Shown one piece after another: positions 4,607 to 29,044 of a stretch of DNA of 64,000 nt. A model generated the notes under the pieces. The model searched no databases. It had not been told where the DNA came from and worked only from the letters and a program-made list of their open reading frames with translations. Position 1 is the first letter of the stretch. Each line of letters starts with the position of its first letter. Both the position numbers and the translations under genes were made by a program. The stretch lies in contig NZ_JAMFTH010000003.1 of assembly GCF_024195295.1 (NCBI RefSeq), forward strand, positions 7,501-71,500. Reading direction: 5' to 3'. This DNA is from Gilvimarinus xylanilyticus. GTDB taxonomy: Bacteria; Pseudomonadota; Gammaproteobacteria; Pseudomonadales; Cellvibrionaceae.

Positions 4607-4623
4607 AAAGGTCCCCAAGCGTG

Positions 4624-5370: not shown

Positions 5371-5385
5371 TATTATTGCGCCCCT

Positions 5386-6432
5386 TTACGGCAGCAGTGC
5401 CACCACATCCAGACCCTCAGTCTCATCGAAGCCGAACATAATGTTCATATTCTGTACCGCTTGCCCGGAGGCGCCGCGGGTTAAGTTATCGATCACCGCC
5501 AAGACGACTATGGTATCGCGGCCCTGAGGCTGACACACGGAAATGCGGCACATATTCGAGCCTTTTACCGAGCGGGTTTCGGGGTGCGAACCGGCGGGCA
5601 TCACATCCACAAACGGCTCATCCAGAAAGCGCTCTTCAAACAGCGCCTGCAGATCCGGCAAACTCGCCGCATCCTTAGCACGTGCATAACAGGTCGCGTG
5701 AATACCGCGCACCATAGGCAACAAATGGGGCACGAAAGTGACCTGTGCCGGATCGCTGCCAGCGGGCTGCATGTCGTGTAGGGCCTGCTCGATTTCGGGC
5801 AGGTGGCGATGACCACCGGCGCCATAAGCTTTGAAGCTATCGCTGATTTCAGTCAGCAGCATACCCACCTTAGCCTGGCGTCCGGCGCCCGTGGCGCCAC
5901 TGGCGGCGCTAACAATCAAGTTGTCGGTGGCGACCAAATCCTGCTGCAACAACGGCAAAAGCGCCAGCTGCGCCGCCGTGGGGTAACAGCCGGGGCAGGC
6001 CACCAGGCGCGCGGTTTTGATTGCCTCGCGGTTGAGTTCGGGCAAGCCGTAAACGGCTTGGTCAATCAGTTCGGGACAGCCGTGGGGCTGGTTGTACCAG
6101 CGCGCCCAAAGCTCGGCATCGCGAATTCTAAAGTCGGCCGACAAATCAACGACCCGAGTGCCGGTCGCGATCAAGGCGGGCATCAGGTTTTGCGCGACGC
6201 CATGGGGCGTGGCGAAAAACACCACATCACACTGGCCCAGGCTATCTACATCCGGCTCGGTAAAGGCCAAATCCACATGGCCGCGCAGATTGGGGTATAG
6301 ATCGCTGACCGGGATACCGGCCTCGGCGCGGGAGGTAATCACTGAGACCCGGGCGTTAGGGTGTTTTGCCAACAAGCGCAACAACTCGACCCCGGTATAG
6401 CCGGTACCGCCTACAATTCCCACTTTAATCAC
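5386..6432 (-). CDS. argC: N-acetyl-gamma-glutamyl-phosphate reductase
   Basis: Third step of arginine synthesis: NADPH-dependent reduction of N-acetyl-glutamyl-phosphate to the semialdehyde. About 348 residues. The NADP-binding loop is [11 protein letters not shown] at residues 4-14, and the catalytic cysteine is in CPGCYPT (about C149). Two in-frame GTG starts exist, 9 bases apart (6441 and 6432). The second gives the family N-terminus MIKVGIVGG and sits about 8 bases after GAGG, so it is preferred. First gene of the argC-DUF6776-bactofilin-erpA cluster. Confidence 0.96.
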
Positions 6433-12960: not shown

Positions 12961-13024
12961 AAACATGCGTTGAATGTGTCCGCACTGCTTTGGCAAGTAG
13001 GGCCAATCGACAATTTGCACCAAT

Positions 13025-13122
13025 AGAAGGCTAGGGTTCCGGCGGTATTTCACCGTGACTGGTCCGAGAGCTTTCGACCTTCGCAAGGAGGTTACACGGC
13101 GGGATAAAAGCCCGGGAGACTT
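13025..13122 (+). ncRNA. Guanidine-I riboswitch (ykkC class)
   Basis: The conserved blocks of the ykkC/guanidine-I aptamer appear in order: CTAGGGTTCCG (13031-13041), ACTGGTCCGAGAG (13058-13070), then ACGGCGGGATAAAAGCCCGG (13096-13115) followed by GAGAC. These are the hallmark nucleotides that form the guanidinium pocket. The genes downstream (ABC importer, DUF1989 pair, carboxylase) are the standard ykkC-controlled set. It senses free guanidine and is expected to turn the operon on. Confidence 0.95.
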
Positions 13123-13203
13123 AAGGAATCTTTATGGATTCCCGAATTGGCCTGATTGCCAACAGTGCTCCCGGAACCCAAGTGCAACCCTCGGAGGTTT
13201 GTC

Positions 13204-14244
13204 ATGAAACAACTGTCAATTGCAGCGTTAGCGCTACTTTTATCCTTCCAGGTCCAAGCGGCCGATTCCTTTAAAGTGTGCTGGTCAATCTATGTCGGCT
13301 GGATGCCCTGGGGCTACGGCGCCGAGCAAAAGATCGTCGACAAATGGGCCGATAAGTACGGCATTGATATCGAAGTCGTGCAAATTAACGACTACATCGA
13401 ATCCATTAACCAGTACACCACTGGCGAGTTCGATGCCTGCACCATGACCAACATGGATGCGCTGACCATCCCCGCCGCCAGTGGCGTGGACAGCACAGCG
13501 CTGATTGTGGGCGATTTCTCTAACGGTAACGACGGCGTAGTGCTTCGCGATAAAGACAGTCTCGCTGACATTAAAGGCCAGCGTATTAACCTGGTGGAGC
13601 TGTCGGTTTCTCACTACCTGCTGGCCCGTGCGCTGGAAACCGTGGACATGACCGAAGCGGACGTGCAAGTCGTTAATACCGCCGATGCCGATTTGGTTGC
13701 TCTGTACAACTCCGGCTCAGTCAGTGCAGTCACCACCTGGAACCCTCTGTTAAACGCCATTATCGCCGAAGACGACGCCAACCTGGTGTTCGATTCTTCG
13801 CAAATCCCCGGCGAGATTATGGACTTGCTGGTGGTGAAAACCGACACCCTTGAAGCCAACCCCGAACTGGGTAAAGCCTTGGTGGGCGCCTGGTACGAAA
13901 TTATGGGCCTGATGAGTGGTGACGACGAAGCCGGTATTGCCGCGCGCGAAGCCATGGGTAACGCCTCGGGTACCGACCGCGCGGGCTACGAGGCGCAGCT
14001 GGCCAAAACCAGAATGTTCTACCAACCTGCCGACGCTCTGGCGCTGGTTAACAGCGACGAACTGCTAGACACCATGCAAAAAGTGGCCGAGTTCTCATTT
14101 GACCATGGTCTGCTGGGCGAAGGCGCGCCAGATGCCGGCTTTATCGGCGTAGAGGGCCCTCAGGGCACCTATGGCAACAGTGCCAACACCCAACTGCGTT
14201 TTGACACCACTTATATGCAAATGGCTGCCGACGGCAAGCTGTAA
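13204..14244 (+). CDS. Guanidine/urea-carboxylase-linked ABC transporter, substrate-binding protein
   Basis: Periplasmic binding protein of the NitT/TauT-like family found beside urea or guanidine carboxylases. 346 residues with a cleavable signal peptide (MKQLSIAALALLLSFQVQAA; cleavage near residue 19-20). The mature part begins DSFKVCWSIYVGWMPWGYG, with aromatic residues of the type that could stack on a flat cation. The ATG at 13204 has GGAGG about 8 bases before it; an in-frame reading from 13156 would put 16 extra residues in front of the signal peptide. First gene after the riboswitch. Guanidine as substrate is inferred from riboswitch and neighbours. Confidence 0.88.
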   Translation: MKQLSIAALALLLSFQVQAADSFKVCWSIYVGWMPWGYGAEQKIVDKWADKYGIDIEVVQINDYIESINQYTTGEFDACTMTNMDALTIPAASGVDSTALIVGDFSNGNDGVVLRDKDSLADIKGQRINLVELSVSHYLLARALETVDMTEADVQVVNTADADLVALYNSGSVSAVTTWNPLLNAIIAEDDANLVFDSSQIPGEIMDLLVVKTDTLEANPELGKALVGAWYEIMGLMSGDDEAGIAAREAMGNASGTDRAGYEAQLAKTRMFYQPADALALVNSDELLDTMQKVAEFSFDHGLLGEGAPDAGFIGVEGPQGTYGNSANTQLRFDTTYMQMAADGKL

Positions 14245-14255
14245 TACCTCCGACT

Positions 14256-14272
14256 CGGGGGCTTTGCCCCCG
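14256..14272 (+). other. Intercistronic hairpin between binding-protein and permease genes
   Basis: CGGGGGC-TTT-GCCCCCG gives a perfect 7-bp stem with no U-run. Hairpins after a binding-protein gene commonly protect that part of the mRNA and raise the binding protein over the membrane parts; that role is inferred. Confidence 0.6.
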
Positions 14273-14286
14273 TCTGAGAGCCAAGA

Positions 14287-15108
14287 ATGAAAAGACTGGT
14301 TAACTTAACCCCATCGAAGCCCGCCCGCATCCTGTTAGGGTTACTGCCTTTCGCGCTGATCCTGCTGATTTACGTTATCGCCTCGGATGCGCGGCTGGAG
14401 GCCAACCCCAGCGATAAGCTGCTACCCAGCTTTGAACAAATGGGCGATGCCATATCGCGCCTGGCCTTTGAACCCAGCAAACGCACCGGCGAATACCTGT
14501 TCTGGCAGGACACCCTATCCAGCTTGACCCGTCTGGGCCTGGGTATTGGCATTGCCGCGTTTATCGGTTTTACCCTGGGGCTGCTCACCGGCGCCCTGCC
14601 TACGGCCTATGCCCCTCTGGCGCCATTGATTACGGTAATCTCGCTGATTCCCCCCATGGCGCTGCTGCCCATCTTATTTATTGTGTTTGGCTTGGGCGAG
14701 TTGTCGAAAATCGCGCTGATTATCTTTGGCGTCGCGCCTTTTATTGCCCGGGACATTCAGCGCTGCACCCTGGAGATTCCCCGCGAACAATTAATCAAGG
14801 CGCAAACTCTGGGCGCCAGCAGCTGGCATATTGTCTGGCGCGTGCTGGTACCGCAGCTCATGCCTCGCCTGATCAACGCCATGCGTTTATCCCTGGGCGC
14901 AGGCTGGCTGTTTTTAATTGCCGCCGAGGGTATCGCCTCGACCGATGGTTTGGGTTACCGAATCTTTTTGGTGCGCCGCTATTTATCCATGGATGTGATT
15001 CTGCCCTATGTGGCCTGGATTACCTTGCTGGCCTTTATTATCGATTGGCTGCTCGCCAAAACCAGCCAGCTCGCTTTCCCCTGGCACCACCAAGGAGGTA
15101 AAGCATGA
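14287..15108 (+). CDS. ABC transporter permease (guanidine/urea-type, NitT/TauT family)
   Basis: 273-residue inner-membrane permease. Hydrophobic segments lie near residues 15-30, 80-100, 112-150 and 210-260. The ABC-coupling loop is recognisable around residues 175-195 (LIKAQTLGASSWHIVWRVL, the EAA-like motif with G at the expected place). The N-terminal ~75 residues include a periplasmic stretch. It follows the binding protein after 42 bases containing a hairpin and overlaps the ATPase gene by four bases (ATGA). Confidence 0.9.
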   Translation: MKRLVNLTPSKPARILLGLLPFALILLIYVIASDARLEANPSDKLLPSFEQMGDAISRLAFEPSKRTGEYLFWQDTLSSLTRLGLGIGIAAFIGFTLGLLTGALPTAYAPLAPLITVISLIPPMALLPILFIVFGLGELSKIALIIFGVAPFIARDIQRCTLEIPREQLIKAQTLGASSWHIVWRVLVPQLMPRLINAMRLSLGAGWLFLIAAEGIASTDGLGYRIFLVRRYLSMDVILPYVAWITLLAFIIDWLLAKTSQLAFPWHHQGGKA

Positions 15109-15896
15109 TTGAAATTAAAAACCTGTGGAAGGAGTACGGCGATAACGTCGTTCTGGAAGACATCAGTAAAACCGTTAACGACGGCGAGTTTGTCACCTTG
15201 GTGGGCACCTCGGGCTGCGGCAAAAGCACCTTCTTAAAAATGCTGCTGGGCATGGAATCCCCCACCCGCGGCCAGCTGTTAATTGACGGCCAACCGATAC
15301 CGGATGAACCGGATCAAAGTCGCGGCATTGTGTTCCAGCAGTACTCGGTATTCCCACACCTAAGCGTGCTGGAAAACGTGATGATCGCGCGGGAATTTGA
15401 GCGCGCGCCACTGCTGGGCAAACTCTTCGGCGGTCGCAAAAAACAAGTGCGCGAAGAGGCCCGCGCCCTCCTGGAAAAAGTGGGCCTGACCCCAGCGGCC
15501 GACAAATACCCCCACGAACTATCCGGCGGTATGCGCCAACGCCTCGCCATTGCCCAGGCCCTGATCCGCAAACCCAAGGTGCTGCTTTTAGATGAACCCT
15601 TTGGCGCACTCGATCCGGGTATTCGCGCGGATATGCACCAGCTTATTCTGGAGCTGTGGCGCGAGCACAACCTTACCGTGTTTATGGTAACCCACGATCT
15701 CTCCGAAGGGTTTTACCTGGGCACCCGCCTGTGGGTGTTCGACAAGGTCCGCCACGATCCGCAAGCGCCGGGCGCCTGGGGCGCACAAATCACCTACGAC
15801 TTACCGGTGGGCGAAATTCCCGCCGACACCCTGGCCAAAATGCAACAACAAATTAACGAGCCTGAAGACAAAAAAATCACTGGAGAATCAGCGTGA
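15105..15896 (+). CDS. ABC transporter ATP-binding protein (guanidine/urea-type)
   Basis: 263-residue cytoplasmic ATPase that powers the importer. Walker A GTSGCGKST at residues 34-42, Q-loop in GIVFQQYSVF, signature LSGGMRQR, Walker B VLLLDEPFGALD and the switch histidine in VTHDLSEG are all intact. The last ~45 residues form a family-specific tail. Overlaps the permease (ATGA) and the next gene (GTGA), showing tight coupling through the operon. Confidence 0.95.
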   Translation: MIEIKNLWKEYGDNVVLEDISKTVNDGEFVTLVGTSGCGKSTFLKMLLGMESPTRGQLLIDGQPIPDEPDQSRGIVFQQYSVFPHLSVLENVMIAREFERAPLLGKLFGGRKKQVREEARALLEKVGLTPAADKYPHELSGGMRQRLAIAQALIRKPKVLLLDEPFGALDPGIRADMHQLILELWREHNLTVFMVTHDLSEGFYLGTRLWVFDKVRHDPQAPGAWGAQITYDLPVGEIPADTLAKMQQQINEPEDKKITGESA

Positions 15897-16609
15897 AAAA
15901 CATTGATTACACCACCACCCTACCCGGCGCCAGCCACTGGTCATTTGAAGCGCGCCGCGGCAGTGCCATGCGCCTGACCGACCCGAGTGGCGCAGGCAAT
16001 GTGGGTATGTTGTTCTATAACCCTCGCAACTTATTAGAGCGCTACAACGCCCCCGACTCACTCAAGTGCCAACACACTTTCAAGCTGACCGCAGGACACT
16101 GCCTGTACTCGGACATGGGGCGTATTTTCGCCTCTATTACCGACGACACTTTCGGCTGGCACGACACCGTCAGCGGTACCAGCCACAAGGCCATGGTGGA
16201 AAAAAACTGGGGCCAGCGGGATTACCAAACCCAAAGTAATGACTGGCTGCAAAATGGCTTTGATGCCTTTTTGGTCGAACTTGCCAAGTACGGTTTAGGG
16301 CGCGCCGATTTAGCAGCCAACGTCAACTGGTTCAGTAAAGTCGCCACCGACGATGCCGGCGCCATGGCACTGGATTCCAGCGCCAACCAAGCCGGTGCAA
16401 GCGTCGAGCTGCGTTTCGAAATGGATACTCTCGTCATACTGCACACTTGCCCTCATCCGTTAGAGGCCAGTGCCGAATATCCACGCGGAGACATTCGCAT
16501 CGATCTGGGCGAAGCCGCACCGATCAACGAAGATGACCTGTGCCTGAATTCACGCCCGGAAAACGCCCGGGGCTTTGCCAATAACGCGCTCTACCACATT
16601 GGAATATAA
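15893..16609 (+). CDS. DUF1989 protein, carboxyguanidine deiminase subunit (first copy)
   Basis: 238 residues, one of two adjacent DUF1989 proteins (urea carboxylase-associated proteins, now known as the CgdA/CgdB carboxyguanidine deiminase in guanidine users). The enzyme converts carboxyguanidine to allophanate and ammonia. Visible: [20 protein letters not shown], the core [14 protein letters not shown], and a C-terminal [10 protein letters not shown]. Compared with the second copy, the residue after the HD core that is cysteine there (GGACATES) is serine here (SGTSHKAM), so the two subunits are not equivalent. GTG start overlapping the ATPase stop; a longer reading is excluded by that overlap. 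Which copy is CgdA and which CgdB was not decided. Confidence 0.88.
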
Positions 16610-16619
16610 CGAGGCTGAC

Positions 16620-17270
16620 ATGACCATTTTAGAAAGCCAATTGTTACCGGAAAACGCCGCTGAGCGCCACACCATAGGCGCGGGCGATTACTACTTTGCA
16701 CCGCTAAAAAAAGGCCAGACGTTACGCATTCTTGACCTGGAAGGTAATCAGGCAGCAGACACGTTATTTTTTAATGCCGCCGATGTTTCCGAGCGCTACA
16801 GCGCCACCGATACCATTCGCGAACAGGGCAATGTGTACTTAACCGCGGGCAGCGTACTGCGCAGCAACTTAAACAACCCGATGTTGGAAATTACCGCCGA
16901 TACCTGTGGCCGCCACGACACCTTGGGCGGCGCCTGCGCGACCGAAAGCAACACCGTGCGCTACGATTTGGAAAAACGCTGCATGCACGCCTGCCGCGAC
17001 AGCTGGATGCTGGCGGTTGCCGAGCACCCTGAGTTCGGCGTTAGCAAGCGGGATATTACCCACAACATTAACTTTTTTATGAATGTGCCCGTCACCGCCG
17101 AGGGCGGCTTAACGTTTGCCGACGGCATTTCCGGAGCGGGAAAGTACGTGGAAATGACCGCATTAATGGACGTACTGGTGCTTATGTCTAACTGCCCACA
17201 ACTGAACAACCCGTGCAACGGCTACAACCCCACGCCGGTCGAGATGATTGTTTGGGACGCGCGGGCTTAA
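16620..17270 (+). CDS. DUF1989 protein, carboxyguanidine deiminase subunit (second copy)
   Basis: 216 residues, the partner of the preceding gene. Shows [19 protein letters not shown], the core [16 protein letters not shown] and a second conserved cysteine cluster [17 protein letters not shown], consistent with the metal/catalytic half of the pair. The ATG at 16620 begins [17 protein letters not shown], 10 bases after the first copy; a reading from 16575 would overlap the upstream gene out of frame. With the carboxylase it should turn guanidine plus bicarbonate into allophanate. Confidence 0.9.
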
Positions 17271-17302
17271 GTCCACACACAAAAAACTGAATCGAATTGC
17301 CG

Positions 17303-17351
17303 CAGAGGACGACCTCTGACGCACAAGGCATAGCCGGGACGACCCGCGGAG
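17303..17351 (+). ncRNA. Guanidine-II riboswitch (mini-ykkC) in front of the carboxylase
   Basis: Two hairpins, each closed by the diagnostic ACGA (ACGR) tetraloop: CAGAGG-ACGA-CCTCTG at 17303-17318 (6 bp) and CGGG-ACGA-CCCG at 17335-17346 (4 bp), joined by a 16-base linker. The second stem is followed at once by the ribosome site CGGAG (17347-17351), seven bases before the ATG. The 3' arm of hairpin 1 (CTCTG, 17314-17318) can pair with CGGAG, so guanidine binding, which holds the hairpins together, would free the ribosome site. The class is clear from sequence; the switching model is inference. Confidence 0.9.
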
Positions 17352-17357
17352 ACAGTT

Positions 17358-20300
17358 ATGTTTACCAAAGTTTTAATTGCCAACCGAGGCGCCATTGCCG
17401 CCCGTATTATTCGCACCCTGCGCCAAATGGGCATCCAATCGGTAGCCGTGTACGCCGAAGCCGACGCCGCCAGCCTGCACGTTCGCCAAGCGGACGAAGC
17501 CTATAGCTTAGGCGAAGGCGCCGCTGCCGACACCTATCTTGCGCAAGAAAAAATTCTAGCAATTGCCAAGAAAACCGGCGCCCAAGCCATTCACCCGGGC
17601 TACGGCTTTCTCAGTGAAAATCCCACGTTCGTGCAGCGCTGTGAAAGCGCGGGCATTGCCTTTGTTGGCCCAACCCCCGAGCAAATGAATGTGTTCGGCT
17701 TAAAGCATACGGCGCGCGAGGTTGCCGAAGAAAATGCTGTGCCTTTGGTGCCTGGCACCGACTTGCTCGACTCTTTAAAGGACGCACTGAAAGCTGCCGC
17801 CGAGATCGGCTACCCCATCATGCTAAAAAGCAGCGCCGGGGGCGGCGGTATTGGCATGAAGCTGTGCGAAAGCGAGCAAGACCTTAAAGACAGTTTTGAT
17901 TCTGTGCGCAAGTTAGGCGCCAATAACTTTTCCGACGACCGCGTCTTTTTAGAAAAGTTTATCGGCCAGGCTCGCCATATTGAAGTACAGGTTTTTGGTG
18001 ACGGCAAAGGCAAAGCGGTTGCCATTGGCGAGCGCGATTGCTCCAGCCAAAGACGCAACCAAAAAGTGATTGAGGAATGCCCGGCACCCAACCTGCCCGA
18101 ACCACTGCGCCACGCCATGCACGACACAGCGGCGCGACTTTTGGCGGCGGTTAACTATCGCGGCGCTGGTACCGTGGAGTATATTTACGACGCCAAAGAC
18201 GAAAAGTTTTATTTTCTTGAGGTCAACACTCGCCTGCAAGTTGAGCATGGGGTTACCGAGGAAGTTTGGGGGCTGGACTTAGTCGCCTGGATGATTCGCC
18301 TGGCCGCCGAAGAAGCACTGGATATTGAGCAGGAGTTTGCCCAATTAACGCCCACCGGCCACGCCATTCAAGTGCGTGTTTACGCCGAAGACTCGGTAAA
18401 AAATTTCCAGCCCAGCGCCGGTTTGTTAAGTGAGGTTAGCTTTCCGAGTAACGAGCGCAGCGACGATAAAGTCGTTCGTATCGATCACTGGATTGAATCC
18501 GGTCTGGAAGTATCCCCCTATTTTGACCCCATGCTGGCAAAGGTGATTACCAAGAGTAAAAACCGCACATCAGCTATTGAGCTGTTAAAAGCTACTTTAA
18601 TAAGCTCCAAGCTGTACGGCATTGAAACCAATAAAGCGTATGTCACCGAGCTTTTGGACGAGCCGGTTTTTATCGACGGTGAAATTACCACTCGTTACCT
18701 TAACGAACGCGGCTTTGCCGAGGCGCGTATCGATGTATTATCCGGCGGCACACAAACCACGATTCAGGATTTTCCTGGTCGCAGCGGTTACTGGCACATT
18801 GGTGTACCTCCATCTGGGCCTTTTGATAACTACTCGTTCCGTCTCGCCAATCAGCTGCTGGGCAACGACGCCGAAGCGGCCGCATTGGAAATTACCGTAG
18901 CGGGCCCCAGCTTACAATTTGGCTTTGACACCCAGTGTGCGTTAACCGGCGCCGCCATTGATGCAAAACTGGATGGCACACCTGTATCCAGCTGGGAAAT
19001 TTTTACGGTAAAAGCCGGGCAAACCTTAACCCTGGGCCGCGTTAGTGAACAAGGCGCTCGCGCGTATCTTGCGGTAGCAGGCGGCATTCAATGCCCCAGC
19101 TATTTGGGTTCGCGTTCTACCTTTACCCTGGGTCAGTTCGGTGGGCACAATGGCCGCGCGCTGCTGGCGGGCGATGTCCTTCACTGCCGTAAAACCTCGC
19201 CAGTAAAAGAAGCGCACATTCCTCAACAGCTGAAGCCCAGCATCAGCAATCAGTGGGAATTACGCGTAGTCTATGGGCCCCACGGCGCGCCGGACTTTTT
19301 TACCGATGGTGATATCGACACCTTTTTTACCACCGACTGGGAAGTTCACTACAACTCAAGTCGCACCGGCGTACGACTGAATGGCCCCAAACCCGAATGG
19401 GCTCGCACTACCGGCGGCGAGGCCGGCATGCACCCGTCCAACATTCACGATAATGCCTACGCCTTTGGCACCGTGGACTTCACCGGTGATATGCCGGTTA
19501 TTTTGGGCCCCGATGGTCCATCGCTAGGCGGTTTTGTCTGTCCTGCCACCGTGATTACCGCAGATTTGTGGAAGCTGGGCCAGGTGCGCGCCGGCGACAC
19601 CATTCGCTTTGTTCCCGTTACCGTAGAAACTGCGGTGGCGATTGAAAAGACGCAGCGCAATTCTATCGCCCAGTTATCCGCCAGCACCGCGCCAGTCGCG
19701 ACCCTTACAGCCGATAACCTGCCGTCACCAATTGTCGCCCACCTACCGGCTAGCGAAGTCGGTGAAGACGTCAATTACCGAGTCGCGGGCGATCACTTTT
19801 TGCTGGTCGAGTACGGACCACTGCAGCTGGATATTAAGCTGCGTTTTCGCGCTCACGCCTTAATGCAATGGCTGGAGAAAAATCCCCTGCCGGGCATGCG
19901 CGAACTCACCCCCGGGATTCGCTCGCTGCAAATTCATTACAATAGCCAACAGGTGTCTTTGGATGAGCTCATCGCCCACCTGCAAAAAGGCGAAAAGTAT
20001 CTCGCCACGCAAATTGCCGAACTGAGCGTTCCCTCGCGGATTGTGCATCTGCCACTGTCGTGGGACGACGAAGCCTGCCGCGAGGCCATCGCCAAATACG
20101 AACAGAGTGTGCGCCCGGGCGCGCCCTGGTGTCCTTCCAACCTGGAGTTTATCCGCCGTATTAACGGCCTGGACAGTATCGATCAGGTAAAAGATATCGT
20201 CTTCGATGCCTCTTACTTGGTGATGGGACTGGGAGATGTGTATCTGGGTGCACCGGTGGCAACCCCCATGGACCCGCGTCACCGTTTAGTAACCACCAAA

Positions 20301-20975
20301 TACAATCCCGCGCGAACTTGGACGGCAGAAAACTCCGTGGGTATTGGCGGCGCTTACATGTGCGTTTACGGCATGGAAGGTCCGGGTGGTTATCAGTTTG
20401 TGGGGCGTACCATTCAAATGTGGAACCGCTACCGTAAAACGCCCGAGTTTGATCAGCGCTGGCTATTGCGCTTTTTTGACCAAATACGTTTTTACGAGGT
20501 GAGCGCCGATGAACTAAAACAAATGCGTCGCGACTTTCCCCGTGGGCAATACCCCATCAAAATCGAGCAAACCGAATTCAGTTTATCGGATTACGAACAG
20601 TTTATTAGCGATCATGACTCGGACATTCAAGCGTTTCAGTCTCATCGACAGAATGCTTTTGATGAAGAGCTGGAGCGCTGGCACGCCGACGGCCAGTTTA
20701 ACTTTACCCCGGTTGAACAAACCGAATCGGACAACGAACTGGATCTGGACGAAGGCGACACTCTGGTGGACAGCTCAGTCTCCGGCAGCGTTTGGCAGGT
20801 GTTGGTCAACGAAGGCGACGAGGTAGAAGCCGGTCAAACCTTGCTGATTCTCGAGTCCATGAAAATGGAAATTAATATACCCGCGCCCGCCGCCGGGAAG
20901 GTCAAGCAGGTATTAAAGGCCTCCGGGAATGGCGTTAAGCCTGGGGATTCCCTGGCGGTGCTGTCTCACGACTAA
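17358..20975 (+). CDS. Biotin-dependent guanidine (urea-type) carboxylase
   Basis: 1205 residues. ATP- and biotin-dependent carboxylation, here most likely of guanidine to carboxyguanidine because the gene sits behind two guanidine riboswitches and next to the deiminase pair. Domains: biotin carboxylase (about 1-450; FTKVLIANRGAIAARII, glycine-rich loop SSAGGGGIGMKL near 155-166, EVNTRLQVEH), AHS2/KipA-like (about 455-760; GGTQTTIQDFPGRSGYWHIG), AHS1/KipI-like (about 810-1040; LVMGLGDVYLGAPVATPMDP) and a C-terminal biotinyl domain (about 1130-1205) with the biotin lysine K1169 in ESMKMEI. No allophanate hydrolase domain is fused and no separate one follows. Urea carboxylase is the alternative; the few residues that separate the two activities could not be placed without an alignment. 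Confidence 0.93.
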   Translation: MFTKVLIANRGAIAARIIRTLRQMGIQSVAVYAEADAASLHVRQADEAYSLGEGAAADTYLAQEKILAIAKKTGAQAIHPGYGFLSENPTFVQRCESAGIAFVGPTPEQMNVFGLKHTAREVAEENAVPLVPGTDLLDSLKDALKAAAEIGYPIMLKSSAGGGGIGMKLCESEQDLKDSFDSVRKLGANNFSDDRVFLEKFIGQARHIEVQVFGDGKGKAVAIGERDCSSQRRNQKVIEECPAPNLPEPLRHAMHDTAARLLAAVNYRGAGTVEYIYDAKDEKFYFLEVNTRLQVEHGVTEEVWGLDLVAWMIRLAAEEALDIEQEFAQLTPTGHAIQVRVYAEDSVKNFQPSAGLLSEVSFPSNERSDDKVVRIDHWIESGLEVSPYFDPMLAKVITKSKNRTSAIELLKATLISSKLYGIETNKAYVTELLDEPVFIDGEITTRYLNERGFAEARIDVLSGGTQTTIQDFPGRSGYWHIGVPPSGPFDNYSFRLANQLLGNDAEAAALEITVAGPSLQFGFDTQCALTGAAIDAKLDGTPVSSWEIFTVKAGQTLTLGRVSEQGARAYLAVAGGIQCPSYLGSRSTFTLGQFGGHNGRALLAGDVLHCRKTSPVKEAHIPQQLKPSISNQWELRVVYGPHGAPDFFTDGDIDTFFTTDWEVHYNSSRTGVRLNGPKPEWARTTGGEAGMHPSNIHDNAYAFGTVDFTGDMPVILGPDGPSLGGFVCPATVITADLWKLGQVRAGDTIRFVPVTVETAVAIEKTQRNSIAQLSASTAPVATLTADNLPSPIVAHLPASEVGEDVNYRVAGDHFLLVEYGPLQLDIKLRFRAHALMQWLEKNPLPGMRELTPGIRSLQIHYNSQQVSLDELIAHLQKGEKYLATQIAELSVPSRIVHLPLSWDDEACREAIAKYEQSVRPGAPWCPSNLEFIRRINGLDSIDQVKDIVFDASYLVMGLGDVYLGAPVATPMDPRHRLVTTKYNPARTWTAENSVGIGGAYMCVYGMEGPGGYQFVGRTIQMWNRYRKTPEFDQRWLLRFFDQIRFYEVSADELKQMRRDFPRGQYPIKIEQTEFSLSDYEQFISDHDSDIQAFQSHRQNAFDEELERWHADGQFNFTPVEQTESDNELDLDEGDTLVDSSVSGSVWQVLVNEGDEVEAGQTLLILESMKMEINIPAPAAGKVKQVLKASGNGVKPGDSLAVLSHD

Positions 20976-20988
20976 CGGAAGAGAAAGC

Positions 20989-21015
20989 TTTCCCCTTATT
21001 TCAGCTAAGGGGAAA
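20989..21015 (+). terminator. Terminator-like hairpin ending the guanidine operon
   Basis: TTTCCCCTTA and TAAGGGGAAA form a perfect 10-bp stem around a 7-base loop, 13 bases after the carboxylase stop. The trailing U-run is short (TTCTT), so efficiency may be moderate. Confidence 0.7.
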
Positions 21016-21211
21016 TTCTTGCGACGGACTATTGTTTGTTGTCGTCCTTGAAATTCCGACGCATGCGGGCGACGGTGCTGATGCCTCCAGGGCTCTCGCG
21101 GGCCTTCGGCCCGCTGCGGCACCACCCATGCACCGCACTATTAACTCAACAATACTAATTGCCGGGCTAATAGCATATAGCAAATATGCATAAAAAGGCC
21201 CAGCCAACAAC

Positions 21212-21239
21212 TTGACTCGGTTCTCAAATCGGCAATAAT
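21212..21239 (+). promoter_or_regulatory. Sigma-70 promoter of the LuxR-type gene
   Basis: TTGACT (21212-21217), a 16-base spacer and AATAAT (21234-21239): five of six consensus bases in each box. The start codon lies about 42 bases further on. Confidence 0.55.
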
Positions 21240-21281
21240 CCGTCCATACCCCCAACCCAGCCAGCTTGACAGGATAAAATA

Positions 21282-22448
21282 ATGAAACCCCACAAGGACT
21301 ACACACAAACCAGTTACCTTCCCAGTATTGCCCCCCAGGATGCCTTTTTACTTGGCCTACTCGTTCAGGCCAATGCCAATGAAAGTGGCTGGTATCAGTT
21401 TTTAGATGCTTTTTGCCAGCACTTTAACTTACACAGCGCGCACATTTATATAGCCATACCCTCACAACGCGCGCCCATATTTCAAGAAACCGCCGGGGCG
21501 CAGCCCTCAGAAATGGAGCTGATGGCTTATCTGGAGCATTACTTTCAGTATGATATGGCGCACCTGGCCATACTTCATGCAGCCCCCCATCAATGGATTG
21601 CCAGTAACCTGATGCCCAACCGCGAAGTGGTGGAATCCACCCCTGCCTATACCTGGGCCCATCGCAATAATATTCACTATGTCGCCGGCGCCACCTTGTT
21701 TCGCGACGCCCAACACACCTGCGTTTTGGTACACAACCGATCACAAAGCCACGGAGAGTACCAGCCCGAAGAGATGCAGCGTATGGAAGCGCTATCGCCT
21801 TTTATTGAAAATGCCATGAAACTGCGTTTGGAGCTATCCGGCAGCGGCGATGACAATATCTACATTCGCACCGCACTCAACAAAATGCGTATTCCGGTGG
21901 CAATAATCAACGAATTTAGCGAGTTAATGGCGCAAAACCGGCAAATGGAAACTTTTTTGCAAGACCAGTCAGAACTATCATTAACCGGCGGTACCCATTT
22001 CCGCCTAAACCAAGAGCATACGAATAAGGCTCTACAATTTGCCATTGCCCAGACCATATCAGAAACCAAAGCAATGGATCTGACCTACAGTACGGACTTA
22101 GTACCCGTTAGTCTGGAAGGTCAACACCAAGCATTTATTGGGGTGGACGCCATTATGGAAGATCGCGAAGGCCAGCCTACATTTCGCGGCGCCATGGTGT
22201 ATGTAGTGTCACCCGATCTGATAACCCCCTTACCGGAACACACCCTTGGCAAAATGTTTAACCTGACAGCCGCAGAAGCACGGGTATGTCAGAGATTTTC
22301 TCAACTTCAATCGGCCAAGCAAATTGCGCAACAAGAAAACAAATCTGTTTATACAGTTCGAGAACAATTAAGATCTATTTTTGAAAAAACCGGCGTAGCA
22401 AACCAAATGCAACTGATCAATTTACTCTCTGCGTTACCGGCATCTTAG
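21282..22448 (+). CDS. LuxR-family transcriptional regulator with long N-terminal sensor region
   Basis: 388-residue DNA-binding regulator. The C-terminal ~60 residues are a LuxR/GerE helix-turn-helix: LTAAEARVCQRFSQ, then AKQIAQQENKSVYTVREQL (recognition helix) and IFEKTGVANQMQLI. The N-terminal ~320 residues have no signal peptide or membrane helix and look like GAF/PAS-type sensing modules; no cofactor motif is recognisable. AGGA precedes the ATG. It has its own promoter and stands behind the guanidine operon's terminator, so a link to guanidine is only positional. Confidence 0.85.
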   Translation: MKPHKDYTQTSYLPSIAPQDAFLLGLLVQANANESGWYQFLDAFCQHFNLHSAHIYIAIPSQRAPIFQETAGAQPSEMELMAYLEHYFQYDMAHLAILHAAPHQWIASNLMPNREVVESTPAYTWAHRNNIHYVAGATLFRDAQHTCVLVHNRSQSHGEYQPEEMQRMEALSPFIENAMKLRLELSGSGDDNIYIRTALNKMRIPVAIINEFSELMAQNRQMETFLQDQSELSLTGGTHFRLNQEHTNKALQFAIAQTISETKAMDLTYSTDLVPVSLEGQHQAFIGVDAIMEDREGQPTFRGAMVYVVSPDLITPLPEHTLGKMFNLTAAEARVCQRFSQLQSAKQIAQQENKSVYTVREQLRSIFEKTGVANQMQLINLLSALPAS

Positions 22449-22564
22449 CCTTACACCTATCCGCACTTACAGCGAACACTTTAGGCCCTAGCCCAACAAC
22501 ATACAAATTCTGGTACGCTAGGGCCAACGAACTATCTACACTTGACAGGGATAGCTGGCTTTCT

Positions 22565-24058
22565 CTATGGGCGTTGAAAATTGAAACGCTCATTATCGTC
22601 CACAAGGCCATTTCTGTTTGAATCGACATGGAGTAACATACCGTCTTCAGTAAAGATTACATAGTGATCCATTTCATTTAAATCCTGATCACTCAAACCA
22701 GCATCATCGTTGTAATCATTAAAGACATCAATCACAAGAGCACCTGTCTCAGAATTCAGATTATAGCTACCCCACTCCATGCCTGAATCTTCCCCATAAA
22801 CATCAAAAGGCTCTTCTTCATCCACCTCCATGTGAATATAGGTATTATCTTCAAAAAAAACAAAGGCCAAAAACTCATTTTCTGATGACTCATTCACCCA
22901 CGGACCGTACAAGCCAGAGGAAGCACTCTGGCGGGAAAACACTAGCGTTTCACCCTCGGTGTCAATCACGCCGTTGGCATTTTCGTCAAACTCCAATGTA
23001 AGAATATCCCCTGACACATGAAAGAAGAGGTCCCGATCCTCATCGGTAAAACTAGTCAATCCGGCGCCGCCATTTTCATCAAATATTTGTGAAACAGCGA
23101 CAAGGCCGGTTTCTTGATTCACCGCGTAAGTTCCCCACTCCATACCTGAATCTTGGTCTTCATACTCGTAAGGCCCCTTCTCGTCAATTTCTACATGGGC
23201 ATAAGTACCATCAGCAAAAAACACAAACGCTAACAAATCGTTCTCGGTTTGTGATGTTCTCCAAACACCTACAACACTGGAATTGTTCGTGAACTCAATT
23301 CCCTCAGCTGTCAACGTCTGCTCAAAATGAGATATAGCGGCACTTTGAGATACTAGTCGCGTAATCACAGAACCCGAATTAGCCACTAGATTGACAACAG
23401 CCGCGTTAGCTTCAAAGTCGTTGATTGGCGCCGAAAAATCGACCGGGACCGATACAGTCTTAGCAGTCTTAGCTATTTCAAGTCCATTCTCTGGATTTCC
23501 ATCGACATCCAGCGACTGAAGTAATCGAATAATATTCACAACCATGGGGTTGGACGAATCGTCGGTTCCCGCAAGATCCAAAGGTGTGATCTTACTGACA
23601 GCGGCCACAGCGGGGAACTCGAGATTGCCAATAAAAAAGGTAACCGTCTCTCCTTCTAGATATTGGAACTCACCGCCACCATTTGTCTGACCATCCAAAG
23701 TCTCAGTGCGATAGCCGATATTGACAACTGGACTATCTAAAAATACGCCCGTTTTCGCTGCCGCCGCACTGCTGACGCTTGAGGACGAGCTATTGGGCTC
23801 TGACGATGCACTACTGTTTGAGCCATCAGAAGAGGCCGAGCTAGCAACCTGCGAACTTGATGAGCCAATTGAAGAAGTAGAACTCGATATTTGCGAATTT
23901 GAAGATTCAACTGAAGAGCTCGAACTGCTCATTTGCACGCTTGAGGAGCTGCTAAAGCTTGTGTCATCGTCATCATTCGATGACGATCCTCCACAGCCGG
24001 TCACCAAACTTACTGCCATTGCAGCCAATAACCCATTAATTCTTTTCACTGACTTCAC
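22565..24058 (-). CDS. Surface/outer-membrane lipoprotein with poly-serine linker and tandem repeats
   Basis: 497 residues, function unknown. Lipoprotein signal peptide ending VTGC (C22), then an acidic run and a serine-rich linker of about 65 residues, typical of Saccharophagus/Cellvibrio secreted proteins. Next comes a domain common in gammaproteobacterial adhesin-like lipoproteins (residues ~100-210: FLDSPVVNIGYRTETLDG, GGEFQYLEGETVTFFIGNL, NIIRLLQSLDVDGNPENGL). Two tandem ~110-residue repeats follow, each with LAFVFF..(T)Y.H.E(V/I)DE and DSGMEWG(T/S)Y, from about 265 and about 385. No catalytic motif was recognised. The gene and its neighbour are AT-richer than the rest of the window. Confidence 0.8.
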   Translation of the reverse strand: MKSVKRINGLLAAMAVSLVTGCGGSSSNDDDDTSFSSSSSVQMSSSSSSVESSNSQISSSTSSIGSSSSQVASSASSDGSNSSASSEPNSSSSSVSSAAAAKTGVFLDSPVVNIGYRTETLDGQTNGGGEFQYLEGETVTFFIGNLEFPAVAAVSKITPLDLAGTDDSSNPMVVNIIRLLQSLDVDGNPENGLEIAKTAKTVSVPVDFSAPINDFEANAAVVNLVANSGSVITRLVSQSAAISHFEQTLTAEGIEFTNNSSVVGVWRTSQTENDLLAFVFFADGTYAHVEIDEKGPYEYEDQDSGMEWGTYAVNQETGLVAVSQIFDENGGAGLTSFTDEDRDLFFHVSGDILTLEFDENANGVIDTEGETLVFSRQSASSGLYGPWVNESSENEFLAFVFFEDNTYIHMEVDEEEPFDVYGEDSGMEWGSYNLNSETGALVIDVFNDYNDDAGLSDQDLNEMDHYVIFTEDGMLLHVDSNRNGLVDDNERFNFQRP

Positions 24059-24205
24059 CTGCTCTTTGCTCTTTTCGAAAGGACTAGACGCTTGTTTGTG
24101 CGCTTAGCATGGAATCCAATAACCATTAAAAGTAACTTGATATACTTGAAATCTCTAGGGGGTTTCCGATCCAGTAGAGTTTATCCAATACCATACCAAA
24201 ACACA

Positions 24206-26536
24206 TTATCGAAGAATTCTAAACTCACCCTCTACCCGCTTCTCATCATAAAAATCAACATATTGCCAACCTTCACTATCCTCATAAGGATCACTATGTG
24301 CCGCCGCCGTAAAGCTAAACCTTCCCGCCATTAAATTATTGGAGTATTCGGTAATTGTAACTGAACCACCGTAGTTTTTATCAATGCCCCGATATACCGA
24401 AAGATTACCGGTATGATAATAGCTCGGACCTTCACTATAACTATGAATTACGGCCAAGTGGGAAGAGCTTGTCGTCTCGGTGATAGGCCAATCATTCAAC
24501 GTGTATGAACCACTTCCTATAAAGTTGGGCCCAACAGAAACTGATAAACTGTAAGAACTCCCACTGAAGAATAGGGTCCAATGATCACTTGTTTCATAGA
24601 TAACCCCACAGCCAAAGCCAAATAGCTCAAGCGAGTCCATATAAATTAATGTCGAACACCCAGTCTCCAATGAGAACGTAAAACTCACATCATCATTATC
24701 AACCTCTCCAAAATAAAGGTCGACACTACGATTATCAATAGAAGCTTCCCCAACATAAGTAAGGACAAACTGCTCACTTTCCATGGGCCGTAGAACGCTA
24801 ACTTCCCCGGAACTATTCTCAATGACATAATTATCGTTATTTAAGAACACATCGCTGAGTTCAATTGTCCCCCGACCTACGTTTTTAACGTTAATCGTAG
24901 CTGAGTCGGACTCCATCGACTGTACTGATCCATCGACCACCTCTACACCTTCAAAAAAAACGCTCAACTTAGGCTGATCAACTGCGATCAGAGTAGCCGA
25001 CTTAACAACCTCATACCCACTTTCCTCATCTGACAACATGAAGCTAAAATCTACAACTCCATTTTCTGGAATGAGATCTATATCGTTAAATTTGAACTCA
25101 AGCCTCATGACTGAATTCTCGGTTGAGACAACCCGCCCATGAACATTAGAGTTTGACACATTGGTCAAACTAAAATCACTCGCATTCGCAGGCTTTATAG
25201 TATCGGAATACATTGGTAGGCTAATATTAAAATTGAAAGCCGATCTCACCATCTGCAATACAGCCCTAACGTTGTTTAATCGGCTTACAAATTTTGACTT
25301 TTGACCTTCATTCTCGAAACCATACTCAATATTAATGGCGACATTTCCGAACTCCCCCTCCCAAAATTCCAGAATGCCTTTATCATCTATAGTAGTCTTT
25401 AACGAATTTTTCGAAATATCACTCTCAGGACTAGATATATATACTCCAACCGGCACGACACATTGTTCATACACCTCATTCATGGAGTATTTTAGGCGCC
25501 GCGCATTTTTGTATGTTGCCCAGGCTCCAAGGGAGGTGACTAAAGCCCCCGGCAATGATCCAGCACCCGATGACATCATCCCGAGACCAACCACTGTTGT
25601 GTAGAGACTTGCTGTCGAGAAAGCGGAGTCTCTTAGGAAACTCTTAAGCGAACTCTCACAGGAAGAATCTTTCTGCAACACGCCCCTATCGTTTTTTATT
25701 GAAGGTGGGGCGTAAGAAGAGCCGCCAGAGAAAAACTCATAATCTCTATCGAGCTGATAAACTATATGAGCCAATAGCATTAAATCATTTTCAGAAAGGC
25801 TAGAAATAGACTCTTGGGCCAACAGGAGGTCTTCATACATCTCATCCGTCACGACATTTTGTTCACGTAATCCAGATAAAGATATACCCACGGAATCCAA
25901 TACGACTTTTAATGGATCTTCAATGACAACCTCTGGGTTTACATTAATTTTCGATGAGTATTTAACTTTATTTATTAAAACGTTAACGTCAGAAAGTCCT
26001 TCTACACCTAAAGGAACAATGAAAGAAATCACATTATCCGAAATGCCTACGTGAGATATAGAGACTCCACCCAGGGTCACTTCAACAGAAGCCCCAGAAA
26101 GCTCTGGCCCCTCATAGCTGTATACAACCGTGCTGCCGGGAAAAAACTCTAAATCAGAATCTATTAGCGTTATGGCTGTCGGTGTTATTTCGATGACTAC
26201 GTCATCAGTAGCGCTATTGCCACCGGCGTCTTCGGCAACGGCGATACATTTAACGCTTCTAACTGCAGGATCTACTGGAAGATTTAAAATTTTCCCTTCA
26301 AGGCTTCCTCGGTCACATGAAACTGAAACCTCAGGAGGCAAGCCGGAATTATCTGAGGCATTAGTACTTAACATAACTGTGCTACCCGGCCATTGGCTCT
26401 CAACATTGCTGTCAATAGAAATTTGGGGAGCTGTCGAATCCTCTAAGGAAGGTGGTGGTGCTGGAGGGTTTTCCGTCGATGCTCCTCCACAACCAAACAA
26501 TATAAGTGTACATGCCGTCAATAATGCCAAACGCAT
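24206..26536 (-). CDS. Large lipoprotein with Ig-like segments, function unknown
   Basis: 776 residues from the ATG at 26536 (MRLALLTACTLILFGC, lipobox cysteine C16). A start 48 bases further upstream is possible but places 16 polar residues before the signal peptide. After a proline-rich linker come beta-rich stretches resembling bacterial Ig/cadherin-like domains (about 35-200; APQISIDSNVESQWPGSTVM), a helical middle part (about 200-370) with a short hydrophobic glycine-rich stretch (GLGMMSSGAGSLPGALVTSL), and a further beta-rich C-terminus with FGCGVIYETSDHWTLFFSG. No enzyme motif seen. The base composition is clearly more AT-rich than that of the housekeeping genes, suggesting transfer or fast evolution. 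Confidence 0.72.
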   Translation of the reverse strand: MRLALLTACTLILFGCGGASTENPPAPPPSLEDSTAPQISIDSNVESQWPGSTVMLSTNASDNSGLPPEVSVSCDRGSLEGKILNLPVDPAVRSVKCIAVAEDAGGNSATDDVVIEITPTAITLIDSDLEFFPGSTVVYSYEGPELSGASVEVTLGGVSISHVGISDNVISFIVPLGVEGLSDVNVLINKVKYSSKINVNPEVVIEDPLKVVLDSVGISLSGLREQNVVTDEMYEDLLLAQESISSLSENDLMLLAHIVYQLDRDYEFFSGGSSYAPPSIKNDRGVLQKDSSCESSLKSFLRDSAFSTASLYTTVVGLGMMSSGAGSLPGALVTSLGAWATYKNARRLKYSMNEVYEQCVVPVGVYISSPESDISKNSLKTTIDDKGILEFWEGEFGNVAINIEYGFENEGQKSKFVSRLNNVRAVLQMVRSAFNFNISLPMYSDTIKPANASDFSLTNVSNSNVHGRVVSTENSVMRLEFKFNDIDLIPENGVVDFSFMLSDEESGYEVVKSATLIAVDQPKLSVFFEGVEVVDGSVQSMESDSATINVKNVGRGTIELSDVFLNNDNYVIENSSGEVSVLRPMESEQFVLTYVGEASIDNRSVDLYFGEVDNDDVSFTFSLETGCSTLIYMDSLELFGFGCGVIYETSDHWTLFFSGSSYSLSVSVGPNFIGSGSYTLNDWPITETTSSSHLAVIHSYSEGPSYYHTGNLSVYRGIDKNYGGSVTITEYSNNLMAGRFSFTAAAHSDPYEDSEGWQYVDFYDEKRVEGEFRILR

Positions 26537-26945
26537 AAGATTTCTCTCGTTTAACGCGCCTAAAACAGCACTAGTTATGCTCATCTAAACTAGCCCGTGC
26601 TCAACGGCGACAGTTTGCCGGAGCACTCATTATACTCCGAAGGATCTATGATAATGCGGATTCGCCAATGCCCATAACCCCTAACATTGGGGGTATGCAT
26701 GGGAGCAATTCTTAGCACTTAGATCAAAGAAGAGGCCTCATCTAGCTCAAGAGCCGGACCTAGGACCTGAGATTTGAAAGGACGAGCATTATCTATGGGG
26801 TATAGTCGAAGGGAAGCTACAAACATTAAAGCATACTGAGCCAATTCAGCACATTTACGCCTTAAATATAACCAGCAAGCTCGCAGCACTAGCTCAAGAG
26901 CTTGCCAACCCAGCCCAAGCATGGACCGGGTCTCAGGGCATCATT
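26537..26945 (-). other. Gap without a supported gene
   Basis: Between the two lipoprotein genes there is no convincing coding region. One 67-codon frame (26719-26922, minus) has no ribosome site, no family resemblance and unusual composition, and was not accepted. No clear terminator, tRNA or repeat is visible. Confidence 0.5.
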
Positions 26946-28778
26946 TTACAAGGTTTCTGTAATCACCGTATCGATGACGTGTATGACCCCATTACTGGTA
27001 TAGATGTCATACATGATGACATTGCTTCCCTGCACCTGCAGCATTCCGTCAACAATTTCGATACTTACGTCTTCATCGGCGGCAGTGTCGATACTGGTAC
27101 CATTTAAAGTGAAGGCAGTGACGGAATCTACGGCCATCTCAGCAATAACGTGCTGAAGCAGCACTTGAGTTAAGGCGGGGGTATCCATAATCAAGGCATC
27201 CAAGGTGGCGCTATCAATTTTATCGAAAGCGGCATCGGTGGGTGCAAAGACGGTGAAGGTTTCACTCTCGTCCGCCAGTGTAGCGTCCAGGCCCGCCGCC
27301 TGAAGGGCGCTCACTAAAGTCGTGAAGTTACCCGCATCGACAGCCGTCTCTACGATGTTGCTGTCAGAAGCCATCATATCCGCAGGCGGCATGATTACCT
27401 GATCAATCGCGTGAATGACACCGTTTTCTGCCATCACATTCGCACTGGTGACCATGGCAGTATTAATGTAGAGCGACTCACCACTTAAAGACAGGGCCGC
27501 CATATCGTCGTTAGCCATGGAGATTTTTGACATTTCGTCGTTGGCAATTGCGATAGCACCATCGGCCAGCACTGCATTACCGGGAATGACATGATAGAGC
27601 AGAATGTCGCTTAGCGTCTCGGTGTCGGCCAGCAACTCATTAATGGTGTCTTCACCCAGTCCCGCAAAGGCCTCATCAGTGGGGGCAAACACAGTAAAAT
27701 CTGTGTCCAGGTCAGCCAGGGTCGCATCCAAGCCAGTAGCCTGCAATGCAGCGACCAAAGTGTTGAAATTACCCGCCTCCACAGCAACATCAACGATCGA
27801 TTGGGGCGGCTCGGGCAGCTCCAAATCACCAACAATTACCGTATCAATCACATGGATAATACCGTTGGTGGTGTAGATGTCTTTCATTACCACATTGGCG
27901 CCGCCCACAGTGAGTTTGCGGTCCACAATATCCACTAACACATCGGTACCCGCAGAGGTTTCCACAGCGGAGCCGTTGGCCGCATAGGCTGCGCTGGAGT
28001 TAATTTCACCGGAAACCACGTGCTGCAAAAGAACAGCTTCAAGCGCTTCCGGGTCATTCAGCAAGGCCGTAATGTTTTCCTCGCCCACCATGTCGAAAGC
28101 ATCATCGGTAGGGGCAAAAACCGTAAAGCTGCCGCTTTCGTCGGCCAGCACCGTATCCAGGTCAGCAGCCTGTAGCGCCGCAATCAGGGTGGTGAAATTA
28201 CCATTGTCCACCGCCGTTTCCACGATATTCATACTCGGCTCGCCGCGCTCGGCGGGCGGCATGAGCACAGCATCAATAACGTGAATAATGCCGTTGTCTG
28301 TTTGAATATCGGTTGTGGTGACCATCGACAGGTTAACCAGCAGCGACTCGCCTTCGAGAGACAGGCCCACACGCTGGCCATTAGCCACCTCTACAGTATT
28401 GCCAGCACTGGCAATCGCGGCTTCAGCGTCGATTTCGGCATCGGCGATTACGTGGTAAAGAAGAATGTCCGAGAGTTGGTCGGTGTCGTTTAAAAGAGCG
28501 TCGATGGTGTCTTGCCCCAACAAAGCGAAGGCGTCATCCGTGGGCGCGAATACGGTGAAAGTTGCATCCTCATCGTCCAGAGTTTCATCCAGGCCCGTGG
28601 CCTCCAGCGCTGCCACCAAAGTGGTGAAATCACCACTGTCTGATGCTACGTCAACAATCGTTTGCGCGGGTTCCGGTTCAGGCATCGGTGAATCATTGTC
28701 GTCATCATCGCTACCGCAGGCCGTTAACCCCAATGCCATCGCGGCGACTAGCAAGTACCTCAGAGTGAGCTTATTCAT
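26946..28778 (-). CDS. Lipoprotein with four fasciclin (FAS1) domains
   Basis: 610 residues. Signal peptide with lipobox LTAC (C21) and an acidic linker (GSDDDDNDSPMPEPEP). Four FAS1 domains of about 130-140 residues follow (roughly 38-172, 180-320, 325-468, 474-610). Each has the H1 box around TVFAPTDDAF or a close variant and the H2 box NGIIHVID or NGVIHVID. FAS1 proteins mediate adhesion or matrix contacts. The gene is transcribed away from an ECF sigma/ChrR pair and has its own ECF11-type promoter, so it is probably a stress-induced envelope protein; in Rhodobacter a fasciclin gene is likewise reported in the RpoE/ChrR singlet-oxygen regulon. Ribosome site AGGAGA precedes the ATG. Confidence 0.93.
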   Translation of the reverse strand: MNKLTLRYLLVAAMALGLTACGSDDDDNDSPMPEPEPAQTIVDVASDSGDFTTLVAALEATGLDETLDDEDATFTVFAPTDDAFALLGQDTIDALLNDTDQLSDILLYHVIADAEIDAEAAIASAGNTVEVANGQRVGLSLEGESLLVNLSMVTTTDIQTDNGIIHVIDAVLMPPAERGEPSMNIVETAVDNGNFTTLIAALQAADLDTVLADESGSFTVFAPTDDAFDMVGEENITALLNDPEALEAVLLQHVVSGEINSSAAYAANGSAVETSAGTDVLVDIVDRKLTVGGANVVMKDIYTTNGIIHVIDTVIVGDLELPEPPQSIVDVAVEAGNFNTLVAALQATGLDATLADLDTDFTVFAPTDEAFAGLGEDTINELLADTETLSDILLYHVIPGNAVLADGAIAIANDEMSKISMANDDMAALSLSGESLYINTAMVTSANVMAENGVIHAIDQVIMPPADMMASDSNIVETAVDAGNFTTLVSALQAAGLDATLADESETFTVFAPTDAAFDKIDSATLDALIMDTPALTQVLLQHVIAEMAVDSVTAFTLNGTSIDTAADEDVSIEIVDGMLQVQGSNVIMYDIYTSNGVIHVIDTVITETL

Positions 28779-28823
28779 TTTGCATCTCCTGCAATTAGTA
28801 AGAAGTCTTACGTGCAGTGGCAG

Positions 28824-28850
28824 TTACGCCGTTACAAAATTTCAGGATCA
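28824..28850 (-). promoter_or_regulatory. ECF11-type (RpoE/ChrR) promoter for the fasciclin gene
   Basis: On the minus strand: TGATCC (28850-28845), 16-base spacer, CGTAA (28828-28824). Same boxes and same spacing as the promoter found 140 bases away in front of the sigma gene. Transcription would start about 39 bases before the fasciclin ATG. Confidence 0.8.
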
Positions 28851-28987
28851 AAAAAGTTTCTTTGATTTGAAAAAATGCGGCTTACGCATCGATTAAATTG
28901 ATCATTATTAACATTATGGCCGTACCACTGAATTGGCTCATTCTGACTTATGGTTCTGCCGCAGACCCTTTGTCCATGCTATGCTGG

Positions 28988-29014
28988 TGATCCAACCTGG
29001 GCCTGCCTGCGTAA
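28988..29014 (+). promoter_or_regulatory. ECF11-type (RpoE/ChrR) promoter for the sigma factor operon
   Basis: TGATCC (28988-28993), 16-base spacer, CGTAA (29010-29014), matching the TGATCC/CGTA-type promoters of the ChrR-linked sigma group. It lies about 30 bases before the sigma-factor ATG, as expected for autoregulation. Confidence 0.8.
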
Positions 29015-29044
29015 ACAAAGAAAACGAAGCGAGGACAGGCACCC

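Follow-up and report, generated by a model that had tools for sequence, protein, structure and literature searches.

Guanidine-I and guanidine-II riboswitch aptamers in a guanidine import and degradation operon of Gilvimarinus xylanilyticus and its relatives

A guanidine import and degradation operon of Gilvimarinus xylanilyticus carries aptamers of two different guanidine riboswitch classes: a guanidine-I (ykkC) aptamer in its leader and a guanidine-II (mini-ykkC) aptamer inside it, directly before gca, the guanidine carboxylase gene (Table 1). The operon lies in a stretch of 64,000 nucleotides (nt) that we call the window (contig NZ_JAMFTH010000003.1 of assembly GCF_024195295.1, positions 7,501 to 71,500). 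We consider it likely that both elements are guanidine ON switches and that guanidine-II is gca's own translational switch, in a layout that is already in print. In the order Pseudomonadales, to which this genome belongs, an internal guanidine-II is the rule among the sampled gca loci that are led by guanidine-I.

Two aptamer classes and a guanidine carboxylase

We scanned the whole window for RNA families with Rfam 15 at gathering thresholds. A first-pass annotation, made from the sequence alone, had called two different guanidine riboswitch classes in one operon and proposed such a covariance-model scan; both aptamers score above threshold, the guanidine-II hairpins included, and the coordinates then given (13025-13122 and 17303-17351) prove right to within 2 to 5 bases of the Rfam matches. 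Both elements are on the + strand, separated by 4,180 nt and five genes, and the genome in total has one guanidine-I and two guanidine-II matches in Rfam. Both RNAs are members of guanidine riboswitch classes by sequence; guanidine binding has been demonstrated for other members, among them other guanidine-I RNAs (PMC7266159; PMC12508155). The window's guanidine-II exceeds the Rfam cut-off by just 2.7 bits. Its twin hairpins (17303-17318 and 17335-17346) have ACGA in both loops, in agreement with the ACGR loop of the class, and it reaches 45 bits (E-value 1.1e-9) with R1, a guanidine-II model made from 49 Rfam matches, to whose training set the window sequence belonged.

The guanidine role of the operon is borne out by these Rfam classes and by the signature residues of its carboxylase. 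The guanidine type is told from the urea type by Asp residues at positions 1330 and 1584 in K. lactis numbering (PMC11410670). When aligned with K. lactis urea amidolyase (5i8i), the gca product has Asp707 opposite Asn1330, and its Asp960 corresponds to position 1584 by counting along the alignment, where the match line marks an identical residue. Together, the two residues rule out the annotated type, a urea carboxylase. Position 707 is Asp in 31 of 31 lettered rows of riboswitch-type loci and Asn in 16 of 18 TIGR02712 copies without such elements. The riboswitch-type side comprises 32 carboxylases (30 of the 80 nearest loci described below, the window and locus L220), with row L075 being a 175-residue fragment; "linked" would be a loose name for this set because a few rows (L032, L054) lack guanidine-II by gca. 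The closest carboxylase is that of G. chinensis DSM 19667, with 96% over the carboxylase.

Carboxyguanidine deiminase (cgdAB) is represented by UAAP1 and UAAP2, both above their curated cut-offs. According to the list of open reading frames (ORFs) and the family profiles, 13204-20975 contains the genes of Table 1 and no others, and mgdH and mgdL are not among them. The importer and deiminase genes overlap or almost abut, except that the first and second genes are 42 nt apart. The start of gca lies 87 nt past the UAAP2 stop codon, a distance because of which gca is not translationally coupled to the preceding gene.

Table 1. Features of the guanidine operon in the window (aa, amino acids; ABC, ATP-binding cassette).
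Feature	Position	Strand	Basis and remarks
Guanidine-I (ykkC) riboswitch aptamer	13020..13120	+	RF00442, 90.1 bits (cut-off 63), E 6.9e-15, model 1-107 of 107
Candidate guanidine-I expression platform	13112..13174	+	CCGGGAG 13112-13118 complementary to CTCCCGG 13168-13174; nested hairpin arms 13147-13151/13158-13162; no T-run after
Shine-Dalgarno GGAGG of first gene (ATG 13204)	13193..13197	+	sequence
Importer substrate-binding protein	13204..14244	+	TIGR03427, 539.8 bits (cut-off 333.9)
ABC permease, TauC/SaoP-like	14287..15108	+	best NCBIfam 115.1 bits, under the model's cut-off of 342
ABC ATPase	15105..15896	+	best NCBIfam 186.4 bits, under cut-off; 4-nt overlap with permease
UAAP1, DUF1989 (carboxyguanidine deiminase subunit)	15893..16609	+	TIGR03425, 309.9 bits (cut-off 205.95); PF09347; 4-nt overlap with ATPase
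UAAP2 (carboxyguanidine deiminase subunit)	16620..17270	+	TIGR03424, 326.8 bits (cut-off 284.7)
Guanidine-II (mini-ykkC) riboswitch aptamer	17301..17346	+	RF01068, 34.7 bits (cut-off 32), E 0.0033
Shine-Dalgarno GGAG of gca	17348..17351	+	sequence; 6 nt 5' of ATG 17358
Guanidine carboxylase gca (annotated type: urea carboxylase)	17358..20975	+	1,205 aa; TIGR02712, 1852.8 bits (cut-off 1303.85)

Conservation of the layout

The survey of relatives proposed in the first-pass annotation found the internal mini-ykkC conserved. For an order-level view we drew 293 genomes from the window's order. Rfam identified guanidine-II in 73 of them and guanidine-I in 77; TIGR02712 matched at 100 places, spread over 85 genomes. 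Four of the 100 carboxylase matches (G059 twice, G088, G120) were partial and below the cut-off and were left out before counting; for the other 96, the 6.5 kilobases (kb) 5' of the match were examined. Two of these stretches hold only 60-61 bases and one (L182) only 590, so little upstream sequence that the absence of guanidine-II is uninformative in these three. With Rfam alone and strict filters, an internal guanidine-II was counted in 45 of 71 guanidine-I-led gca loci. Since this count overlooked obvious elements that could be recognised by eye, we counted instead with R1, run over the upstream stretches, excluding sense-strand matches weaker than E 1e-4 (for example L123, E 0.0034). By this count, 60 of the 71 loci have a sense-strand guanidine-II between guanidine-I and gca: in 54 it lies 14-48 nt before the gca match, in five at 1.4-2.6 kb, and in one it is 656 nt ahead of a gca match that is truncated. 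In five of the 60 (L142, L150, L170, L172, L187) guanidine-II precedes the deiminase genes, behind an importer that looks different by eye.

The presence of guanidine-II follows the distance between guanidine-I and gca. Where this is 2.8-5.7 kb, 60 of 62 loci have the internal element (the exceptions are L123, with one hairpin kept, and L191), versus none of nine where it is 1.4-1.7 kb, a tendency only, because three loci of a second set (L015, L066, L069) have guanidine-I about 1.6 kb away and guanidine-II as well. This second set consists of the 80 nearest carboxylase loci and partly overlaps with the 293-genome sample. Guanidine-II lies at most 200 nt from the carboxylase start in 72 of the 80 and at 1.5-1.6 kb in two more; four of the 72 matches are weak (E 0.0056-0.0093), one of them a single hairpin. 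In L026 (Marinimicrobium alkaliphilum) and L123, the second hairpin alone is left before gca, and the gap is unusually long (>360 nt).

The hairpins themselves are conserved as structures. In an alignment of 49 relatives, with 47 distinct rows, pairing holds in 97.2% of the hairpin cells, and the stems of the distinct rows contain 101 cells altered on both sides versus 28.0 in shuffles, a count biased towards structure by the choice of sequences via the Rfam model. These compensatory changes point to selection on both hairpins. A chance match is ruled out by the conservation in relatives, which also removes the doubt over the 2.7-bit margin. The same changes speak against guanidine-II being a relic with little present function, left from a once separate gca transcription unit that was joined to the importer operon. 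Such an origin would fit the presence of guanidine-II before gca in 72 of the 80 nearest loci, with the guanidine-I motif in fewer (48 of 80), and the single-hairpin remnant in Marinimicrobium (L026, L123); we nevertheless regard it as very improbable.

Gene spacing and the guanidine-I leader

Where guanidine-II stands directly before gca, the gap between deiminase genes and gca could be measured in 53 of 54 loci and is at least 71 nt in all 53, which is partly trivial because the element occupies that room. The gap measures 5-46 nt in all five loci in which guanidine-II precedes the deiminase genes, and at most 57 nt in 9 of the 11 loci that lack guanidine-II. From this pattern, gca seems either coupled to the deiminase genes or under its own switch, and gap and guanidine-II would belong together through the lack of coupling.

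The first-pass annotation stated that guanidine-I controls the whole transcript, which we treat as an assumption. A scan of the window found no terminator-like site between 12945 and 14814 (+ strand); guanidine-I may therefore control translation of the first gene, or work through Rho, instead. A promoter scan gave two sites versus 5.7 expected, none of them before 13020. Among 62 comparable leaders, the GGGAG tail of the aptamer lies in a stem followed by a T-run in only one (L165; five others were flagged elsewhere), versus three of nine short operons. By contrast, 49 of the 62 have a hairpin and then CUCC, CUCU or CCUC after the aptamer, versus 18.95 expected from shuffles. The GGGAG tail is invariant in 30 aligned leaders, the shape of the hairpin is kept by eye while its sequence varies, and both the tail and the Shine-Dalgarno sequence are able to pair with the downstream CUCC/CUCU element. 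These leader features suggest a switch at the level of translation, and terminator-free guanidine-I leaders bear on how the class works in Gram-negative bacteria. In three short operons (L131, L135, L137, in genomes G093, G146 and G060) that have the GGGAG stem and T-run, a second guanidine-I is found several kb further on, perhaps for the importer.

These leaders bear on serial control, in which guanidine-I would gate transcription of the whole operon and guanidine-II would be a second, translational check on gca that sharpens or delays carboxylase synthesis. PMC12508155 proposes guanidine-I at transcription and guanidine-II at translation, and terminator-like stems with a T-run do follow guanidine-I in relatives L131, L135, L137 and L165. 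However, there is no such terminator in the window nor in 61 of the 62 comparable leaders examined for the GGGAG tail, and three of the four leaders of terminator type come from short operons that lack guanidine-II. We therefore think serial control rather unlikely.

Proposed mechanism

In the mechanism that we prefer, the most likely effect of the leader's guanidine-I is to increase importer expression and, via the overlapping genes, that of both deiminase subunits; in the window guanidine-I would do so at translation initiation. Guanidine-II, whose hairpins lie just 5' of the gca Shine-Dalgarno sequence, would be the translational switch of a separately started gca. Both would be ON switches in this species, and the carboxylase would be produced only with guanidine present and the operon transcribed. 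More tentatively, and with less confidence than doubt, we propose that each uncoupled block of guanidine genes has its own switch, with gca either coupled or led by guanidine-II, and that guanidine-I of this order is a terminator-free translational switch in which GGGAG and the ribosome site compete for CUCC/CUCU behind a conserved hairpin. One switch per uncoupled cistron is a plainer, testable alternative to the two readings of one ligand, with a delayed or graded response, that the first-pass annotation suggested.

Several points weigh against these proposals. Ligand binding to guanidine-II is expected to unmask the Shine-Dalgarno sequence; over 58 loci, whether the hairpins were held or forbidden made no difference to the predicted accessibility of the gca ribosome site (0.41 versus 0.38 unpaired, P 0.38; 28 of 58 loci in the expected direction). 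The ribosome site of the first gene was covered by a hairpin in 31 of 62 leaders versus 29.8 expected, the start codon having sometimes been wrongly chosen by the script; the same test gave 1 of 9 versus 3.1 expected in short operons and 11 of 27 versus 7.9 expected at gca. Neither folding test gave evidence that the ribosome site is masked, so the mechanism is one that we infer. In addition, PMC12508155 presumes the guanidine-I of Vreelandella boliviensis to be a terminator-type switch, and the three loci named above break the distance rule. The loci are kin and their counts hence not independent, and the gene content between guanidine-I and gca was inspected in 13 loci and the window only.

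Related elements in the genome and in relatives

The genome's other guanidine-II (G000:C1:158918-158967; L001:1501-1550) scores 41.9 bits, versus 34.7 for that of the window, and stands before the gene of an SMR exporter of the SugE/Gdx type (134.5 bits, cut-off 126). Read by eye, its linker, CACCTCTC, and the GAGAGGTG that precedes the start codon share an 8-nt complementarity, a feature not found for gca. Allophanate hydrolase, the last pathway step, is encoded on another contig (G000:C1:188404-190050; L084, L221:2390-4198, - strand) beside a GntR-type regulator and the urea ABC protein UrtA, and the Rfam scan gave no guanidine riboswitch match by it. This gene lies 3' of gca in 61 of the 80 near relatives; it did not turn up in the sequence flanking the Gilvimarinus, Cellvibrio and Marinimicrobium loci, nor in the window (20976-31000).

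Guanidine-II-like elements also precede genes of other kinds. In two genomes, which belong to different families, such elements (L161:3636-3681, + strand, E 1.6e-6; L160:2640-2697, + strand, E 0.0024) occur upstream of gca loci, 12-13 nt before FA_desaturase-family membrane proteins (ORFs 3695-4714 and 2710-3684) that are 38% identical to each other and could be an oxygenase acting on alkylguanidines. The "desaturase" beside a guanidine riboswitch in the literature is, as far as its partly checked sources go, the arginine desaturase NapI. On the strand opposite gca, two further elements (L127:4962-5012, +, E 2.9e-5; L197:3206-3246, +, E 0.0043) precede 2OG-Fe(II) oxygenases (ORFs 5044-6069 and 3275-4300; PF14226, PF03171), perhaps similar to MgdH.

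Elsewhere in the window, a 388-aa ORF 3' of gca (21282-22448) matches response-regulator DNA-binding models weakly at its C-terminal end (E 1e-4) and has no Pfam match. A ribosomal S15 leader (32844-32964, - strand, 60.6 bits) and a tRNA gene (39455-39528, - strand) are both ordinary.

Comparison with known systems

The first-pass annotation knew of no described operon with this arrangement, a view overtaken by PMC12508155 (2025), where the V. boliviensis operon has guanidine-I in its 5' untranslated region and guanidine-II between cgdB and gca, both probed, together with importer and deiminase genes as in the window. Its guanidine-I has an apparent dissociation constant (KD) of 44 µM for guanidine by in-line probing and its guanidine-II apparent KD values of 93 µM for guanidine and 83 µM for methylguanidine; the operon's proteins go up on guanidine or methylguanidine as nitrogen source (PMC12508155). 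V. boliviensis additionally has mgdH and mgdL, and its operon is taken to include an allophanate hydrolase; none of these is in the window operon. We regard mgdH and mgdL as an extra of halophiles that does not define the two-riboswitch layout.

The same measurements raise the idea that the two switches read different ligands, guanidine-I responding to guanidine only and guanidine-II also to methylguanidine, so that gca could respond to a precursor. In V. boliviensis, guanidine-II indeed binds both alike and guanidine-I guanidine only (PMC12508155). The window operon, however, has neither mgdH nor mgdL among its genes and thus does not encode the conversion of methylguanidine, and we judge this explanation improbable here.

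In our literature search, we found no paper naming Gilvimarinus together with guanidine, and none combining guanidine, riboswitch, operon and translational coupling. A review reports the same arrangement for three enterobacteria, Raoultella terrigena, Erwinia rhapontici and Klebsiella michiganensis, with importer and deiminase genes under guanidine-I and the carboxylase right downstream under guanidine-II (PMC12186494, 2025); a 2021 study behind that statement may have surveyed such operons. In the three enterobacteria, allophanate hydrolase follows under guanidine-II, whereas that of the window genome is on another contig. Tandem riboswitches (PMC9481103) likewise place two switches for one ligand on one mRNA, but their aptamers are adjacent in one leader, unlike the widely spaced pair of the window; the excerpted survey lists no guanidine class in tandem. 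The arrangement is thus already known and the window is a further instance of it, and our counts extend the 2025 description to a whole order, in which the layout is normal rather than a curiosity.

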